DNA from: a virus
Virus record (IMG/VR): IMGVR_UViG_3300030060_000969
Span: 1-24,176 of that record
Direction: 5' to 3' (one strand)
Length of the DNA: 24,176 bases
The translations under genes and the position numbers were made by a program. This document shows positions 2,497 to 21,052 of the stretch, piece by piece. Within the stretch, counting starts at the first letter, position 1; every line of letters starts with the position of its first letter. A model generated the notes under the pieces. It worked only from the letters and a program-made list of their open reading frames with translations. It had not been told where the DNA came from and made no database searches.

Positions 2497-2525
2497 GTTA
2501 TACTACGCAACGTCCTTAATGTCAA
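2497..2525 (-). promoter_or_regulatory. Sigma70-like promoter for the SSB-like gene
   Basis: On the minus strand TTGACA (2525-2520) is followed by a 17-bp spacer and TATAAC (2502-2497). The -35 box lies within the last codons of the polymerase gene and the spacer starts beside its stop. The next ATG is at 2459 with an AGGAG just upstream, leaving a leader of about 30 nt. The box sequences and spacing equal those of the plus-strand promoter at 17421-17449. Confidence 0.7.
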
Positions 2526-4545
2526 GCCAATTATTGCCTATTTTAGATTCTAATAATAGAGGTACATTAATATCAACACCTAGATGTCGTTTAATACATG
2601 TATCTAAATTAATATTACAATCCTCAATAGCCCATAAGACTTGTTTTTCTTCTTCTGGATGTACGTCAATAACAATACTATCATGTACTGTATTGACAAC
2701 ACAGGACTTTTTACCTTTCAATAAAGTCTCTATCCATATTAATGCTACAGGTACAATGTCTGCTGTAGCAAATGATTGCACAGGATAATTCTTGATCTGT
2801 GTAAAATAACTGATCCTACCACGTGCATTTCTTTGTACATCAGGGAAAGAAAACTCCCTACCTGATGGTGTTGTAATCTTGCCTGTGTTAAGTGCTTCTT
2901 TGGCAAGAGTGTTGTGCCAGTTAGCAATACCCTTGTACTTCTCATTGAAGTGGGTGTAGTAGGTAGCTTCTGCTTTAGATCTACCATATCCACTAGCCCC
3001 ATATAGAGGAGCAAAGGTATGAGCTTTGGCATCTTGTCTGGACATAGCCTGTCCAGCATCTGAGATGATCTTGGCTGTGTAGGAATGCACATCAAAACCA
3101 TCTATTACTTCTCTGATAGCTACAGGATCTTGAGATAGGTACGCAGCTACACGAAACTCTAGCTGTGCAAAGTCAGCTTCAAGTATCTTGCCTCCATTGA
3201 ACCTCGATACGAATACACGCTTGACCGGGAACGTACCTCCACGTGGCATGTTCTGCATGTTAGGCTCTTTCCCACTTAGCCTACCAGTAGATGTCATGTG
3301 TTGGTTAAGTCTTACGTGTAACTTACCATCAGCTTTCACATTGTTAGCTATCCCACCAACGAATGAGGATAGATAAGTATCCAATGCAGATAGCCTTTGT
3401 ACCTTCTCAAGAAACTCTAGTGCATCAGTCATGCCTTTAGTTCTTGCTGAGTTTGCTAGCAGCTCTAGGTTCTTTCTGTTAGTAGAGAACCCATTAGCTG
3501 TAGCCCACTTAGCATTGGGAGCATTAAACTTTAAACCACCAACAATACTAGTAGGCAGAACATGATACCCATTGCCATCACACGAGTTACACTTTGACAT
3601 TTTGGCGTATGGTGTTCCATCTTTTTTCTCCTTTCTTATTTTACCTGACCCATAACAATCAGCACAACGCTTTACATGTGACTTGTACACTATGTCAGTT
3701 TCTTCCCTGACCAGTTGTTTGAAAGCAGTCTGCCCCATGTATGGATCAAACTTATTAATCCAAATGGATTTATCTACAGGCTTGCGACTGTATATCAGAG
3801 TCGATAGTTGCTCTGGACTGCTTAAGTTTAATGGTACATCTCCCATTAATTCCCTTACTTTAGTTTCTAAGTATGATAGTACCTCCTTTCTTTCTTCTTC
3901 AAATGCAATACGTACACCTTCCAGTGCAGTAATGTCTACGTTAAAACCTCTCGTATAGATCTTAGCTAATGCAATAACCATCTGATTAGTTAGCTGCACT
4001 ACATTATGCATACCACTAGCCTCTGTACCTACTAGCTTGATACGCAATTCATGTGCCAGTTGTTGTGTTGCATGTAGGTCAGCACTTAGATACTCAGCTA
4101 ACTCAGCATGTGGTACATCACGTACTGATACACCTTGCTTGAGATAAGCCTTGAGTGTGTCCTGTTTCTTAGTGTCTAGATCATAACGTTGTGCACATGC
4201 TTCTAATGACAGAGGTTGCTTGATACCACGTAGTATCAGATACTCCATCATCATTGTGTCAAACACTGCTCCATTGTAGGTAAAGCCTGACTCCCATAGC
4301 CACACTAAGTCATGGCCTATGTTGTGACCAATCAGTACAGTAGCCTGATCTAGCTTGCTCTGTACAATAGCATGACCATTAGGAGTAGCCTCTACTTCAC
4401 TGTGATCAAACGTAACGATGTCTTCATTGCCCTGATCATCGAGCATACCCACCATAACAAGTGTGTTCTCTGGCTCGAAAGGATCTAGCTGTAGCTTACC
4501 TTCACGTTTGATTACTGTGTTTTCTACATCAAGAGTCAGTTTCAC
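2503..4545 (-). CDS. Family A DNA polymerase with 3'-5' exonuclease and inserted DnaJ-type zinc finger
   Basis: The phage replicative polymerase, about 680 residues. The proofreading domain shows Asp6/Glu8 (LDVE), Asn75/Asp79 (HNIGHD) and Tyr152/Asp156 (YLSAD). A zinc finger follows at residues 294-325: CADCYGSG, an 18-residue gap, then CNSCDGNG, as in the DnaJ central domain. The polymerase half has GRLSGKEPNMQN, motif A EADFAQLEF (Asp458), motif B with Lys507, Phe511 and Tyr515, and motif C VHDS (Asp622). Motif C normally reads HDE, so Ser623 is unusual. The residue equivalent to E. coli Phe762 is Phe. I chose GTG 4545 over an upstream TTG (4563) because AAAGGAG (4558-4552) sits at ideal distance from the GTG. 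The start overlaps the oxygenase gene by 17 nt. This domain combination is characteristic of HMO-2011-type phages. Confidence 0.95.
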   Translation of the reverse strand: MKLTLDVENTVIKREGKLQLDPFEPENTLVMVGMLDDQGNEDIVTFDHSEVEATPNGHAIVQSKLDQATVLIGHNIGHDLVWLWESGFTYNGAVFDTMMMEYLILRGIKQPLSLEACAQRYDLDTKKQDTLKAYLKQGVSVRDVPHAELAEYLSADLHATQQLAHELRIKLVGTEASGMHNVVQLTNQMVIALAKIYTRGFNVDITALEGVRIAFEEERKEVLSYLETKVRELMGDVPLNLSSPEQLSTLIYSRKPVDKSIWINKFDPYMGQTAFKQLVREETDIVYKSHVKRCADCYGSGKIRKEKKDGTPYAKMSKCNSCDGNGYHVLPTSIVGGLKFNAPNAKWATANGFSTNRKNLELLANSARTKGMTDALEFLEKVQRLSALDTYLSSFVGGIANNVKADGKLHVRLNQHMTSTGRLSGKEPNMQNMPRGGTFPVKRVFVSRFNGGKILEADFAQLEFRVAAYLSQDPVAIREVIDGFDVHSYTAKIISDAGQAMSRQDAKAHTFAPLYGASGYGRSKAEATYYTHFNEKYKGIANWHNTLAKEALNTGKITTPSGREFSFPDVQRNARGRISYFTQIKNYPVQSFATADIVPVALIWIETLLKGKKSCVVNTVHDSIVIDVHPEEEKQVLWAIEDCNINLDTCIKRHLGVDINVPLLLESKIGNNWLDIKDVA

Positions 4546-5215
4546 TTTTCTCTCCTTTAGCAATTTCTACAAAGTTAAAGTTAGAACTAAACGATCTGCG
4601 CTCACCTTTAGTATAGAAAGGATACACACAATGGAACAACTCACTAGGGAATACGTAGAAGTCTCCCACCTGTGGTCTTACCATAAAGTTTGTAGCACTG
4701 TAGCTACCTGCACTACCAGATATGAACTGTATGTGACCATGAGAAGGATGATGATCTTTGTAATCCTCTTCCCATTCTTTCTCAATACCTTCAGGTAGTT
4801 TCAGATACCCAACACAGGACATACGACATCCTGTATGTAGGTGTACTGGATTGTACTCATGTTCAAACTGCCTGACTAACCATCCAGATACGAACTGCAT
4901 ACTGTACTCAAAGTTATCTGTGTTCAATCTGTTTCTACCATATGAGTTTCGTATAGTAGCTGTCTGATTGTACCTACCTATAAAGTCTTTGACTTCATTC
5001 AAGAACATATCTCTCATTGCTTCACTGAAGTGTAGCTCCTGACCTACCTTACCTACCAGATTGTCTGAGTAGTCCTGTAGATCAGGCTCTTCTTCATAGA
5101 AACTATTCATGTTCTTTATAAACTCAGGACTTAGTTTCTTGTAGCCCATGACAGGACCAAATGGAAAGAAGATCTGCTCATCTGCATCCTTCTTAGGTGT
5201 GAATATATTAACCAT
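4529..5215 (-). CDS. Putative 2OG-Fe(II) oxygenase
   Basis: 228 residues. The second half has the pattern of the phage-type putative 2OG-Fe(II) oxygenase family: NPVHLHTGCRMSCVGYL (His125, His127), then GDFYVFPSELFHCVYPF (His195), then GERRSFSSNF. The last has the Arg (206/207) expected to bind the 2-oxoglutarate carboxylate. The iron triad would be His125 or His127 with a nearby acidic residue, plus His195; the acidic ligand is not obvious. Related phage proteins hydroxylate unknown targets, either protein or modified nucleotides. An AAGGAGG site precedes the ATG. It lies between helicase and polymerase and overlaps the polymerase start, so its expression follows replication. The substrate cannot be told from sequence. 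Confidence 0.75.
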   Translation of the reverse strand: MVNIFTPKKDADEQIFFPFGPVMGYKKLSPEFIKNMNSFYEEEPDLQDYSDNLVGKVGQELHFSEAMRDMFLNEVKDFIGRYNQTATIRNSYGRNRLNTDNFEYSMQFVSGWLVRQFEHEYNPVHLHTGCRMSCVGYLKLPEGIEKEWEEDYKDHHPSHGHIQFISGSAGSYSATNFMVRPQVGDFYVFPSELFHCVYPFYTKGERRSFSSNFNFVEIAKGEKSETDS

Positions 5216-9690: not shown

Positions 9691-9695
9691 GTCAA
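9667..9695 (-). promoter_or_regulatory. Possible sigma70-like promoter for the exported-protein gene
   Basis: On the minus strand TTGACA (9695-9690) lies over the stop of the 9692-10168 gene. A 17-bp spacer leads to TATTTA (9672-9667), two mismatches from consensus; TATATT at a 15-bp spacer is an alternative. The perfect -35 at a gene junction repeats the layout of the promoters near 2.51 and 12.6 kb. Confidence 0.45.
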
Positions 9696-10168
9696 GCACC
9701 AATCCATTCTGGTGTAGGTCTACCTGTCCACTGTAATATGTAGCGTTTATCCTTGCGGTAGTAGGCACGATAGGCTTCTACATAATCGTCACACTTGAAC
9801 TCATCTGGCATACACTGTGGTGGTGTAGTGTGTGCATCATAATCATCGTGAACCCACCCATCATCCATCTCTGCTAGTACTGCTGTACTTTTGTGTACCT
9901 TACCATACCTACGTGTATACTCTCGGCCTATCTCAAGGCCATGATTCACGGCCCATGCAAAGTTATGTTCGTTATCCCTAACCCACACAGTCATAGGATG
10001 GTTCTTGTAGGCAGATTTATATACATGCTTTAGGTGTCGTGCAAAACCCCACTCATGCATAGCAGTGCTACACATCTGTGCAGTCTCCAACACCATCTTA
10101 ACTACATGCTTATCACACAGTTGCTGTGCTGATTTGATTGGGCATCTGTCTATAAAAAATAAGTTCAT
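9692..10168 (-). CDS. Phage protein of the family commonly annotated as pyrimidine dimer DNA glycosylase
   Basis: 158 residues. It starts MNLFFIDRCPIKSAQQLCDK, then HVVKMVLETAQMCSTA. Further on come YKSAYKNHPMTVWVRDN, GREYTRRYGKVHKS and a C-terminal PDEFKCDDYVEAYRAYY with a final TPEW. This arrangement is shared by many phage proteins labelled pyrimidine dimer glycosylase (denV-like), although the resemblance to T4 endonuclease V is weak and activity is, as far as I know, unproven for this form. If right, it would repair UV damage in phage DNA, plausible for a surface-ocean phage. It sits three bases after the small gene 10172-10324. Confidence 0.65.
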   Translation of the reverse strand: MNLFFIDRCPIKSAQQLCDKHVVKMVLETAQMCSTAMHEWGFARHLKHVYKSAYKNHPMTVWVRDNEHNFAWAVNHGLEIGREYTRRYGKVHKSTAVLAEMDDGWVHDDYDAHTTPPQCMPDEFKCDDYVEAYRAYYRKDKRYILQWTGRPTPEWIGA

Positions 10169-10785: not shown

Positions 10786-11052
10786 TTAAAAATCTGTACA
10801 TCTACCATTGTGTTGCCAATCTCCATGCATAGTGGGATCTTGTCCATCGTAACCTCCATACTCTTTCTTAGGTGCTCTACCTCTAGCACGTTGTAGTTGA
10901 TTGTTTATACTTTCTTCTTTTTTTTCTGGTAGATTAAAAAATACGTAGCTGACACCGCCATCCACTAAATCTTTTCTACGTTGAAAATTTACAGGGCATT
11001 TAGATAACCACCGCAAAAAATCATGTTGTGCTTGTATTCCATGTATAGGCAT
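10786..11052 (-). CDS. Hypothetical protein
   Basis: 88 residues: an N-terminal half with a short helix (HDFLRWLSK) and beta-like VSYVFFNLPEKK, then a charged, Gly/His-rich C-terminus (RARGRAPKKEYGGYDGQDP). I do not recognise it. The start is one base from the DUF932 stop (TGATATG), so translation is probably coupled. Confidence 0.6.
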   Translation of the reverse strand: MPIHGIQAQHDFLRWLSKCPVNFQRRKDLVDGGVSYVFFNLPEKKEESINNQLQRARGRAPKKEYGGYDGQDPTMHGDWQHNGRCTDF

Positions 11053-12814: not shown

Positions 12815-12990
12815 TTAGTCATATCCCTCTCATATTTATTTACTCGTATGGTATAGTATTTATCAAACTCAAACACTATCTCTACATTGGTAGGGCAGTC
12901 ATCCAACCACTCAGTTATAGCCTGTTTAGCTTTACCCTTCTGTATATCATCATAGATTTTGGCAAAGTGTTCTTTACTACCTAATAACAT
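12811..12990 (-). CDS. Hypothetical protein
   Basis: 59 residues from ATG 12990: MLLGSKEHFAKIYDDIQKGK, AKQAITEWLDDCPTNVEIVF, EFDKYYTIRVNKY. A helical N-terminus and a beta C-terminus. I chose 12990 because it forms a TAATG overlap with the methyltransferase stop, with AAAGGA 11 nt upstream; the longer frame to 13047 only re-reads the methyltransferase end. No family recognised. Confidence 0.6.
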   Translation of the reverse strand: MLLGSKEHFAKIYDDIQKGKAKQAITEWLDDCPTNVEIVFEFDKYYTIRVNKYERDMTK

Positions 12991-13922
12991 TATAATAATC
13001 CTTTCAATATATGGGCTATCACATCCACAGTGAAGCCATTGCCACATATTTTGTAGCGTTGCGTATTGGACACACCCTCTGTGTATCCAGAAGGCAGGGT
13101 TTGTAATCGTTCACACTCAAGAGGTGTCAGCTTACGCCAACTCATACCTTCTGTGTACACCTTTGGCTCACGATGACCACCACCCATAGTGGTAAGCGTA
13201 GGTGCTTTGCCTTCCCTGTGATAGACACGCTTCAAGCTGTCAATACCTTTCAGGTTAGCCTCACCGACATGGCACAGGCCATCCTTACTGAATACTAGTT
13301 GCCTTCTGTGCTTCTCAAAGTATGTCTTGAGATTACCACCCTTCCAGTAGTTAGCGTCAAGGCAGAAAGACTTGTCTCTGTCCACACAACCATCCTCTAG
13401 TATGTCCTTAAGCATAATGCCTTTGTCCTCTGGTAGACCTGACTGTGGTATGTTAGTCCAGTATAGTCTACGTCTGTTCTGTGCTGACACAAGACTGCTG
13501 TTGATCTCGATAGGTTCCACACCTAGATGTTTGCTGATGACATCCTGATACTTCTGCTTCATGGGTACATTCTCAAACAGAAAGTACTTAGGTCTGAGTA
13601 GATTTTTGATACGCACTATCTCCCAAAAAACCTGACCTCGTGGATCGTCAAAGCCCTTACCCTTACCTGCCACAGAAAATGAGGGGCAAGGAAACCCACC
13701 TGCCATGAAGTCTATTGGGTCACCATTAAATGAGTGCAAACCTACATTGTGAATGTCACCTACCTGCTGTGTGTCTGACCAGTTCTTCTGTGTTACCTTG
13801 ATGGCGAACTTGTCTAGCTCACTGGCATAGTACCTGTAGGTTGGTGCTAGTACACCTGCCCTGACCATAGCTTCCTGTAACATAGATCCACCATCACATG
13901 CTGAGAATACTGTATTAATCAT
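12990..13922 (-). CDS. DNA (cytosine-5-)-methyltransferase
   Basis: 310 residues from ATG 13922. Motif I is NTVFSACDGGSM. Motif IV is GGFPCPSFS with nucleophile Cys79. Motif VI is ENV (117-119) and motif VIII QNRRRLYW (148-155). The C-terminal motifs IX-X are LTPLECERLQTLPSGYT and YKICGNGFTVDVIAHIL. It methylates cytosine C5 using S-adenosylmethionine; the short variable region between VIII and IX should set specificity. No matching restriction enzyme is nearby, so protection of phage DNA from host enzymes is the likely use. The ATG overlaps the stop of the small upstream gene (ATGA), with GGAG about ten bases upstream; a longer in-frame start (13973) lies inside that gene. Confidence 0.92.
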   Translation of the reverse strand: MINTVFSACDGGSMLQEAMVRAGVLAPTYRYYASELDKFAIKVTQKNWSDTQQVGDIHNVGLHSFNGDPIDFMAGGFPCPSFSVAGKGKGFDDPRGQVFWEIVRIKNLLRPKYFLFENVPMKQKYQDVISKHLGVEPIEINSSLVSAQNRRRLYWTNIPQSGLPEDKGIMLKDILEDGCVDRDKSFCLDANYWKGGNLKTYFEKHRRQLVFSKDGLCHVGEANLKGIDSLKRVYHREGKAPTLTTMGGGHREPKVYTEGMSWRKLTPLECERLQTLPSGYTEGVSNTQRYKICGNGFTVDVIAHILKGLL

Positions 13923-14086
13923 TTTGTTATGCTCCAATTTGTTATGTGGTAGTAACCACCAATCTCGCTCCAACCATTAAACCTAGTCCATGCTATATCA
14001 ATAGCTTCTTCTTCTGTATAGCCCTCTGCCATGAGGTCATCAACTATGTCCTCTAACTGACTAGCTATCTGTGGATGTAAACTCAT
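13919..14086 (-). CDS. Small hypothetical protein upstream of the methyltransferase
   Basis: 55 residues: MSLHPQIASQLEDIVDDLMA, EGYTEEEAIDIAWTRFNGWS, then EIGGYYHITNWSITK. Helical, acidic first part. It is joined by ATGA overlaps on both sides (14086-14083 and 13922-13919), strong evidence for a real coupled gene although it is short. No family recognised; DEAI-type helices like this are common in small phage proteins. Confidence 0.65.
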   Translation of the reverse strand: MSLHPQIASQLEDIVDDLMAEGYTEEEAIDIAWTRFNGWSEIGGYYHITNWSITK

Positions 14087-17725: not shown

Positions 17726-17923
17726 ATGTTAGTTAGAGAACCAGTATTAATACGTATTTATTACTACCTGCCTGATCATAGTAGTTTAGTGCAGGAATTT
17801 ATATGGGGTACTATGGACATTATTCCAGAATACCCACGTATTAATAAATTTTTAAACTATTGGCATGAAAATATAGACGCTGTAATAGCCAGTATTGACA
17901 TTGACCCATACAAAGGAGTATAA
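17726..17923 (+). CDS. Usg-like protein
   Basis: 65 residues: IRIYYYLPDHSSLVQEFIW (9-27), MDIIPEYPRINKFLNYWHEN (30-49), IDAVIASIDI. This follows the Usg family pattern (Y.LPDH..LLQ.F.WQ..D..P.FP...RFL.FW...IDG.IHSV). Usg is a small alphaproteobacterial protein named for its place upstream of trpF; its function is not established. Its presence in a phage early operon points to an alphaproteobacterial host and acquisition from it. It starts one base after the previous stop and is followed at once by a small membrane protein gene with AAAGGAG inside its own 3' end. Confidence 0.8.
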   Translation: MLVREPVLIRIYYYLPDHSSLVQEFIWGTMDIIPEYPRINKFLNYWHENIDAVIASIDIDPYKGV

Positions 17924-19485: not shown

Positions 19486-19605
19486 ATGTATAAGAAAACA
19501 AAGAAAATGTCTAAGGGTGGTGCTACTAAAAAAATGTATGGAGGTGGTATGAGTAAAAAGGGTACGAAGAAGTACTCTAAAGGTGGAGCTGCTAAACGTA
19601 GATAA
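19486..19605 (+). CDS. 39-residue Lys/Gly-rich miniprotein
   Basis: Translated by hand: MYKKTKKMSKGGATKKMYGG then GMSKKGTKKYSKGGAAKRR. It is made of SKGGA and K-M-Y-GG units like the tails of the larger basic proteins around it. The stop overlaps the next ATG as TAATG, which supports it as translated. It may be a detached tail module. Confidence 0.6.
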   Translation: MYKKTKKMSKGGATKKMYGGGMSKKGTKKYSKGGAAKRR

Positions 19606-20339
19606 TGCCTAATCTTATAAGCAATGTACCCCACTTTAATTGTTGGGTACGTAGAGAGTTCACTAGTAACCATCAAAAGTATCACGGTGAATTTCTACAT
19701 GGGATTGCATTTGCAGTAAATACCATACCAGACAGATCACTTAGCTTTCAGGTTGTATTTACTGGGTGTGAAATAGACAGGGAAGATGGACCTCAAGAGA
19801 ATGTACATGGAGGAGCTATGTGGGCTAGAATGCCGATACAGGCACTCGTAGCTGACATACCTCTAGAAGAGTGGCCTGACCCAATGGAAGATCATTTATG
19901 CCAACCTTGGGATTGTGAGTCACGAGAGCATGGTACAGTCATTCTGGATAGAGTAAGTTCATCACCTTGGTTGTGTAAGATAGGAGGTGATCTCTATAAA
20001 GGTAAATACTTATTTACCGTAGATTACACAGGCAATGATATAGCAGATGATCCTGCACAGCATAAACAGTCACACGTAATATATTTAACAGATGCTGGTA
20101 GCTGGACAGGAAACTTTGTAGCACTGCCTAATAATAGAGTAAGGGCAACAAGTCCTGCTCTATGGAGAACTGGAGAGGGTGCACCTGACTTTGTACCGTC
20201 ACAATGGGTGCACTCAGCAGAAGGACATGAGACATACTTAGATCCATCTGTAACATTTAATAATCTATACGCAAAGGACGTTAAGACAAATGGCAGTAAA
20301 AACAAAAGCAAAAAAAGTAATAAAAAAAGTAGCAGGTAA
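19605..20339 (+). CDS. Conserved marine-phage protein of unknown function
   Basis: 244 residues, unlike its neighbours in composition: a folded, beta-rich protein with NVPHFNCWVRREFT (7-20), GIAFAVNTIPDRSLSFQVVF and MWARMPIQALVADIP. The start pattern VPHF.CWVRREF and the MWARMPIQAL strand recur in a conserved marine phage family, as I recall, without known function. A Ser/Lys tail (SKNKSKKSNKKSSR) is added at the end, where the frame overlaps the next gene by 50 nt. Confidence 0.72.
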   Translation: MPNLISNVPHFNCWVRREFTSNHQKYHGEFLHGIAFAVNTIPDRSLSFQVVFTGCEIDREDGPQENVHGGAMWARMPIQALVADIPLEEWPDPMEDHLCQPWDCESREHGTVILDRVSSSPWLCKIGGDLYKGKYLFTVDYTGNDIADDPAQHKQSHVIYLTDAGSWTGNFVALPNNRVRATSPALWRTGEGAPDFVPSQWVHSAEGHETYLDPSVTFNNLYAKDVKTNGSKNKSKKSNKKSSR

Positions 20340-20580
20340 ACTGGCAAAGGCTAGTGCTGCACATAAAAAACAGTCTAAACAATTAAGTGCTATTAAATTA
20401 AAAAGTGGTGGTAGCACAGTAAACGCAGCAGGTAACTATACACAGCCCGGTATGCGTAAGAGATTATTTAATAGTATTAAGGCGAGTGGTAAAGGTGGTG
20501 CACCCGGACAATGGTCTGGACGCAAAGCCCAGATGTTAGCAAAAAGATATAAAGCAAAGGGCGGTGGTTATCGTAGCTAG
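20290..20580 (+). CDS. Basic protein with GNYTQPGMRKRLF...GQWSGRKAQMLAKRYK domain
   Basis: 96 residues: a basic N-terminal helix (KTKAKKVIKKVAGKLAKASA) and a conserved C-terminal block GNYTQPGMRKRLFNSIKASG, KGGAPGQWSGRKAQMLAKRY, KAKGGGY. This block is a small domain seen in phages, large viruses and some bacteria (I recall DUF5872 for it, not certain). Function is unknown. It begins inside the 3' end of the previous gene; the ATG is well placed after GGACGTTAAG only weakly, so the exact start is less sure. Confidence 0.72.
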   Translation: MAVKTKAKKVIKKVAGKLAKASAAHKKQSKQLSAIKLKSGGSTVNAAGNYTQPGMRKRLFNSIKASGKGGAPGQWSGRKAQMLAKRYKAKGGGYRS

Positions 20581-20624
20581 TTATGGGCTACTATCGCAAC
20601 TATTATGGATACAGGAATTATATA

Positions 20625-20804
20625 ATGGTAAATGTAACAACAACCTGTGAATGCGGAGAAGAGTTAGTATGTATGTGTAATGTAGGTTCTTCCTGTACAT
20701 GTGATAGCTGTATAGAGTGTGGCTGTGACCCTGATGTATGTAGATGTGATTGTCATGGCAATGATAGAAATGAAATGTTTAAAAGTCAGAGAGATTTTGA
20801 ATAA
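20625..20804 (+). CDS. Twelve-cysteine miniprotein, metallothionein-like
   Basis: 59 residues with 12 cysteines in residues 8-43, mostly as CxC or CxxC pairs (CEC, CMC, CTC, CIECGC, CRCDC), followed by His44. The remainder is acidic (HGNDRNEMFKSQRDFE). Such density suggests binding of several zinc or copper ions. No specific family is recognised. I chose ATG 20625 because AGGA lies eight bases upstream; ATG 20583 in the same frame would add a Tyr/Asn-rich 14-residue head. It ends at the ATG of the next gene. Confidence 0.65.
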   Translation: MVNVTTTCECGEELVCMCNVGSSCTCDSCIECGCDPDVCRCDCHGNDRNEMFKSQRDFE

Positions 20805-21052
20805 TGGCAAGAGCTAAATCACAACAGAGTCTAGCAAACTGGACAAAGCAGGATTGGCGTACTAAGTCAGGTAAGCCATCTACACAGGGACCAAAGGCTA
20901 CAGGTGAAAGGTATTTACCTGCTAAAGCTATTAAGTCACTATCATCTTCTGAGTATGCTGCTACAACCAAAGCTAAACGTGAAGGTAGGAAACAGCACGT
21001 AAAACAACCAAAGGGTATAGCTAAGAAGACAGCTAGGTTTAGGAGAGCTTAA
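20804..21052 (+). CDS. Conserved small basic protein with NWTKQDWRTKSGKPSTQG motif
   Basis: 82 residues: SLANWTKQDWRTKSGKPSTQ, GPKATGERYLPAKAIKSLSS, SEYAATTKAKREG, then PKGIAKKTARFRRA. The motif chain NWTKQ.WRTKSGKPSTQGPKATGERYLP is strongly conserved in my memory across marine phage and viral proteins of unknown function. It overlaps the previous stop and the following start by single bases (AATGG, TAATG). Confidence 0.72.
   Translation: MARAKSQQSLANWTKQDWRTKSGKPSTQGPKATGERYLPAKAIKSLSSSEYAATTKAKREGRKQHVKQPKGIAKKTARFRRA

Follow-up and report, generated by a model that had tools for sequence, protein, structure and literature searches.

Metallothioneins of the wheat Ec-1 type (PF02068, Metallothio_PEC) are built of short, dense CxC and CxxC clusters, a build that the phage protein described here resembles. 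Ferredoxins of the [4Fe-4S] type space their cysteines as CxxCxxCxxxCP. Bacterial metallothioneins such as SmtA and PmtA (PF02069, Metallothio_Pro) are small and cysteine-rich, with CxC pairs and a histidine as a possible ligand, and SmtA has a second, spaced cysteine half. In sections of two published accounts, SmtA-type bacterial metallothioneins are reported to bind 3–4 zinc ions (PMC10612145, PMC7387436). Among viruses, phages of the HMO-2011 type have a DNA polymerase with an inserted partial DnaJ domain that contains two CXXCXGXG repeats, as stated in part of one report (PMC9038755). That marine viruses carry an A-type Fe-S carrier and IscU as auxiliary genes is likewise already known from parts of two papers (PMC5332604; PMC9038755), and these parts make no mention of a cysteine-rich partner of the viral carrier or IscU. 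In word searches of an open-access literature collection, we found nothing on phage or viral metallothioneins or on the core strings described below.

Here, we describe a cysteine-rich miniprotein encoded by a 24,176-base virus record of IMG/VR, the whole of which was analysed and is called the window below. The DNA polymerase of the window (2503–4563, minus strand) shares 65% identity with its counterparts in Roseobacter phages CRP-1 and CRP-345 and Puniceispirillum phage HMO-2011, and it contains the segments CADCYGSG and CNSCDGNG, which are two CXXCXGXG repeats as in the HMO-2011 type. By both DNA and DNA polymerase, HMO-2011-type phages are the nearest kin of the window among annotated phages, and this kinship suggests a marine phage; the record is 24 kb long, compared with 55 kb for HMO-2011. 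The window also carries accessory genes for a 2OG-Fe(II) oxygenase (4529–5215, minus strand, PF13759), a pyrimidine-dimer glycosylase (9692–10168, minus strand, PF03013), a C5 cytosine methylase (12990–13973, minus strand, PF00145) and a Usg-like protein (17726–17923, plus strand, PF06233). The protein encoded at 19605–20339 (plus strand) is labelled ‘ferredoxin’ by PHROG 3704; a Pfam match is absent, a ferredoxin cysteine motif is not evident by eye, and the label looks doubtful.

The miniprotein gene lies at 20583–20804 on the plus strand and encodes 73 residues, from an ATG at 20583 to a TAA ending at 20804; its core frame is kept in relatives. The sequence-only reading had placed the gene at 20625–20804 (plus strand), a form of 59 residues that begins at an internal ATG. 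Its frame and stop hold, but the open frame begins further upstream, at 20583. The same reading had reported 12 cysteines in 36 residues, and here it was right: the cysteines stand at residues 22, 24, 30, 32, 38, 40, 43, 46, 48, 53, 55 and 57 (73-residue numbering) and span exactly 36 residues. This density is far beyond chance. Cysteine makes up 1.24% of the residues of 16 likely genes of the window (56 of 4,524), the densest 36-residue stretch in the window's stop-to-stop frames of at least 40 residues holds 8 cysteines once the miniprotein ORF is removed, and the maximum over 100 first-order Markov windows is 9.

The first 14 codons (20583–20624, plus strand) encode a tyrosine-rich module, MGYYRNYYGYRNYI, which other members of the family swap for other N-termini or lack. 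Codons 2–9 of this module have a pN of 0.19 and a pS of 0.90 across 18 sequences. Hence, the N-terminal 14 residues are conserved as protein, and relatives at least do encode the long form. In all 34 distinct ORFs that have the tyrosine-rich module, a start codon stands at position 15 (ATG in 28, GTG in 6), which makes two start sites possible, and the 59-residue form may therefore be made as well as the long one. The sequence AGGA at 20613–20616 (plus strand) may serve the internal start at 20625 as a ribosome-binding site, and all 34 relatives have AGG, GAG, GGA or GGG upstream of codon 15, a figure that comes without a chance control. The 59-residue form has a mass of 6.5 kDa, 12 cysteines and 2 aromatic residues, and the miniprotein is acidic (pI 4.2). 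Being small and cysteine-rich with few aromatics and with CxC pairs, the short form has the composition expected of a protein that would work as a metallothionein, whereas the long form adds 14 tyrosine-rich residues that are untypical of metallothioneins.

A search of IMG/VR with the 59-residue protein found 24 loci, and all 24 keep the cysteines and the histidine of a conserved core, CDSCIECGCDPDVCRCDCH (20700–20756, plus strand), with the pattern C-D-S-C-x-E-C-x-C-[DN]-P-x-x-C-[RK]-C-x-C-H (seven cysteines and one histidine). A further search of IMG/VR with a 17-member alignment confirmed 94 stretches as relatives. The best 80 of these 94 were fetched, and 79 of the 80 keep the core, the remaining one (L104) being cut by the end of its stretch. 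With hmmsearch --max over 275 collected sequences, no decayed members were found at E<1 except L104. The sequence-only reading had looked to conserved cysteines and an uninterrupted frame among homologs; the first is found in the C-terminal core, several outliers aside, and not in the N-terminal third of the cysteines, and the second largely holds, the exception being one fetched locus, L295, whose core is interrupted by a stop codon (reverse strand; the ORF is at 10934 of the reverse complement), the mark of either a decayed copy or an assembly error.

The miniprotein gene is under purifying selection. Between it and its relative in L003, 7.0 of 26.5 synonymous and 3.0 of 132.5 non-synonymous sites differ, and over 59 distinct core DNAs, which were picked by pattern so that pN is lowered, pN is 0.108, pS is 0.869 and pN/pS is 0.124. 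Among GTDB genomes there is one matching locus (L124, PBIO01000021.1), in a Halobacteriovorax MAG; its contig has the length (34,887) of an IMG/VR virus contig, with which it also shares the miniprotein, and is probably a virus contig binned in this MAG. Apart from this one MAG contig, itself probably phage, all members found to date are in phage contigs.

Outside the cysteines, the D, S, E and P of the core are invariant in 65 of 65 sequences, and the V/I and R/K positions are near-constant; these sequences were selected by pattern, and the invariance follows in part from the collecting pattern. Metallothioneins are usually less strict in their non-cysteine residues than this core. The invariance fits a folded zinc domain and speaks against a metallothionein-like protein, and it supports the chief rival explanation, a structural zinc adaptor. 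On that view, the core would be folded round two zincs and, in this fixed shape, would attach to a protein or nucleic acid of host or phage for host takeover, transcription or packaging; the metal would be structural only. Arithmetically, seven cysteines and a histidine give eight ligands, enough for two tetrahedral zincs, and the core looks domain-like, standing on interchangeable N-termini and, in L014–L017, L019, L020 and L023, inside a companion protein. Against a fixed zinc site stand outliers that came from later scans via the N-terminal module and the carrier gene discussed below. The third core cysteine is lost in L322, L343 and L346 (L343 is also without the proline), and L293, L294 and L302 keep CxCxxC...CxCDPDxCxC and have lost the final Cys-His. 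In L359 there is one extra residue between the fourth and fifth core cysteines, and the core of L370 has A for the usual S and H for the usual P, so the invariance of S and P is itself broken. The number of cysteines varies between members, and AlphaFold2 (46 sequences) gave no fold, with a mean pLDDT of 49 and a pTM of 0.20, which is uninformative. Metal-dependent miniproteins often model badly. We regard the zinc adaptor as possible rather than probable. L293, L294, L302, L322, L343, L346 and L359 all still have clustered CxC thiolates, and fewer or re-spaced ligands within such clusters suggest adaptable clusters more than one rigid site.

Upstream of the core, the CEC...CMC segment (20646–20678, plus strand) is lineage-specific in an alignment of 46 members: two CxC pairs precede the core in 21 members, one in 1 and none in 24. 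The N-terminal ones among the CxC pairs to which the sequence-only reading had drawn attention are thus not a family feature. The total number of cysteines per member runs from 7 to 12 and is odd in 26 of the 46, and the alignment presents the 12 cysteines of the window protein as a lineage trait atop a core of seven cysteines and one histidine. Metal ligation is favoured over disulfides because of the odd totals and the conserved histidine; together with the dense CxC and CxxC thiolates they lend indirect support to the metal-cluster protein that the sequence-only reading had proposed. The tail after the core is free. The C-terminal tail of the window protein, NDRNEMFKSQRDFE, is not general: close relatives, L005 and L007 among them, have a frame that runs four residues past the core Cys-His (HGKS, HGES) and ends within the beginning of the following gene.

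No convincing homolog was found in Pfam, PHROGs, NCBIfam, PDB or annotated phage records. The 59-residue protein has no Pfam match at E<=1 and no PHROG match at E<=0.1. Searches with 17 members gave two weak, unrelated matches each in Pfam and NCBIfam (best E 0.1 and 1.5, respectively) and seven weak PHROG families, among them phrog_26958 (534 positions, function-unknown label), which matched 5 of the 17 members weakly over the cysteine-rich stretch (best E 0.0083, L019) and did not match the window protein. A PDB profile search found no chain at E<=10. Among 50,697 annotated phage records there was no miniprotein match better than E 1; tblastn gave 10 records at E 6 or worse, and a second search gave 2 at E 1. 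In a PDB search with the core alone, three ferredoxins aligned at E 5.5–9.4, which is chance level, and these matches were rejected.

For the metallothioneins themselves, PF02069 found no candidates in the window at E<=10, with the control genome of Synechococcus elongatus positive, and none of the 17 members matched metallothionein models. PF02068 (plant Ec) gave no match either, with a weak control in which 0 of 14 control genomes passed the cut-off. The absence of a profile match counts against a metallothionein-like reading, and of the ‘metallothionein-like’ protein named by the sequence-only reading it is the way of working that is plausible, not membership of a known family. In contrast to SmtA and PmtA, the miniprotein has a compact core of 19 residues joined to exchangeable phage N-termini.

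The miniprotein gene fills an accessory slot at window positions 20581–20803, between two plus-strand genes with function-unknown labels, one for a small basic protein (phrog_17747, 20290–20580) and one (phrog_14910, 20804–21052) with a start that overlaps the stop of the miniprotein gene by one base (TAATG). In 146 distinct gaps between phrog_17747 and phrog_14910, taken approximately from alignment-end distances, the core is present in 33 and absent in 113. Among the core-less gaps, 32 measure 3–21 nt and are nearly empty, and different ORFs occupy others, one example being the gene for the methanesulfonate monooxygenase alpha subunit (MsmA), which HMO-2011 has where the window phage has the miniprotein. 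Contigs drawn via the flanking genes contain the miniprotein at a base rate of 9 in 80 in each of two draws. Other phages have the gene at a different point of this region, such as 0.35–1.1 kb upstream of phrog_17747. A relative of phrog_17747, phrog_14910, phrog_3704, phrog_2524 or the small terminase lies within approximately 3.5 kb of 59 of 70 distinct core ORFs; the other 11 have none of these window neighbours within that distance (for example L093/L124), which indicates that other phage types carry the miniprotein too.

This setting bears on a miniprotein that is packaged in the virion, as the sequence-only reading had suggested from the position of the gene, or built structurally on disulfides. 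The gene does share its strand with the lysozyme and small terminase genes and lies upstream of them, but the slot before them is an accessory one, which also houses unrelated genes such as MsmA or is about empty, and packaging finds no support there. The odd cysteine totals argue against disulfides, and no signal peptide was seen by eye. A virion or disulfide-built protein is therefore very improbable.

The N-terminal part of the family is a mosaic. Members begin with MxYYRxYYxxRxY, GGCGQESI, MISGKVFYGG or FDSTGSL...W(V/I)KV, or have no such module. In one phage type, seen in L207 (4536–4957), L097, L112, L102, L107, L091 and L209, a companion ORF, MSYYRNYYMQREYLMTKPMFDSTGSL...KEFWRNRQ, lies just upstream of the cysteine-rich gene; PHROG matches to it reach E 0.058 at best, and phage records contain no match at E<=1. 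In another type (L014–L017, L019, L020 and L023), which has a protein with the same beginning and end as the companion, the cysteine core stands between the W(V/I)KV and KEFWRNR parts, and in L018 and L021 the arrangement of core and companion looks split. A core that is separate in some phages and fused to the companion in others suggests, from gene arrangement, that core and companion act jointly. Four further loci (L277, L304, L298 and L311) have the N-terminal module MGYYRNYYGxRT at the start of an ORF for an unrelated, presumably DUF3310-like protein. Of 59 pattern matches to the N-terminal module, 29 are ORFs with the cysteine core and 30 are without it, some of the latter plainly by chance. 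The module is possibly a portable N-terminal cassette.

In some relatives the neighbour of the miniprotein is an A-type Fe-S carrier, which matches PF01521 at E 8e-7 in a shortened copy and at E 1e-14 to 7e-18 in whole records, and which has a CGCG end and a cysteine 64 residues before it. The carrier lies downstream of the core on the same strand, 8–248 nt away in 31 of 32 loci and 888 nt away in L113 (19 contigs). In whole records, PF01521 is present in 18 of 80 miniprotein contigs (12 of 50 and 6 of 30), compared with 0 of 100 contigs drawn via the two flanking genes, three of which (L130, L207 and L209) carry the core. The other 62 miniprotein contigs, most of them fragments, are without a carrier. 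Seen from the carrier, 27 close carrier loci have the core within 1.2 kb upstream in 19. Stretches of up to 2.5 kb on either side hold the core in 22 and a variant in three more (one only at E 0.63), and with one further variant seen by eye in the L343 contig, a core or variant lies beside 26 of the 27. These 27 contigs were seeded from a single miniprotein-bearing phage and are related phages that do not count as independent, so Fisher values calculated for the linkage are not true probabilities. The link is confined to a single group of phages and is made to look stronger by their shared ancestry. Simple common descent accounts less well for the two gene orders seen: the miniprotein precedes the carrier in 19 loci and lies downstream of it in L346 (a variant), L347 and L348.

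The second rival, after the zinc adaptor, draws on this linkage and casts the miniprotein as an Fe-S or iron-binding protein, one that would either accept a cluster from an A-type carrier of phage or host or supply that carrier with iron. The auxiliary carrier and IscU genes of marine viruses, as noted in part of one paper (PMC5332604), fit this explanation, as does the weak alignment of the core with ferredoxins (E 5.5–9.4), a DSCxxCG-like local likeness to 2[4Fe-4S] ferredoxins that is not significant. Its cysteines, however, are spaced CxxCxxCxCx4CxCxCH and not as in the [4Fe-4S] ferredoxin motif, none of 50 records, of which 27 have the carrier and 23 only the miniprotein, contains IscU (PF01592), and the 62 carrier-less contigs count against this rival as well, although mostly fragments. 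A direct Fe-S protein thus appears unlikely.

The explanation that we favour, with about even confidence, is a soluble metal-thiolate miniprotein that works in a metallothionein-like way in the infected cell and is no member of a bacterial metallothionein family; we infer its metal binding, cellular location and role. In the cytoplasm of the host, at least two thiophilic ions (Zn2+, Cu+ or Fe2+) would be held by thiols of the conserved seven-cysteine, one-histidine core and of the additional CxC pairs present in some lineages, and the miniprotein would buffer the metal, carry it or pass it on. Its purpose would lie in how the infected cell manages metal and Fe-S, as the linkage with the phage A-type carrier in sister phages suggests. 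A metal-handling host effector, the other role raised by the sequence-only reading, is possible. A more specific proposal is that this phage-evolved miniprotein is a dedicated partner of the phage A-type carrier, serving as metal donor, cluster acceptor or Zn/Cu guard in a two-gene metal and Fe-S supply module, and that phages of the window type retain the miniprotein and use the carrier of the host; we hold such a dedicated partnership to be rather unlikely. PF01521 is absent from the window record, where no carrier stands beside the miniprotein, and from two miniprotein-bearing contigs of 54 and 56 kb (G026 and G045), and the miniprotein is found at 0 of 53 distant phage A-type carriers. These absences count against the favoured explanation, and a casual look at the surroundings of the miniprotein gene revealed neither a metal transporter nor a metal sensor gene.

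The miniprotein thus represents an unnamed but conserved phage family that, judged from its residues and gene context, probably works like a metallothionein and is unrelated to metallothioneins by profile. Being short and easily made, it suits a direct metal-binding test. If a thiolate family linked to Fe-S carriers is indeed what these phages encode, marine phages would have their own protein for handling metal ions, in addition to borrowed host enzymes.
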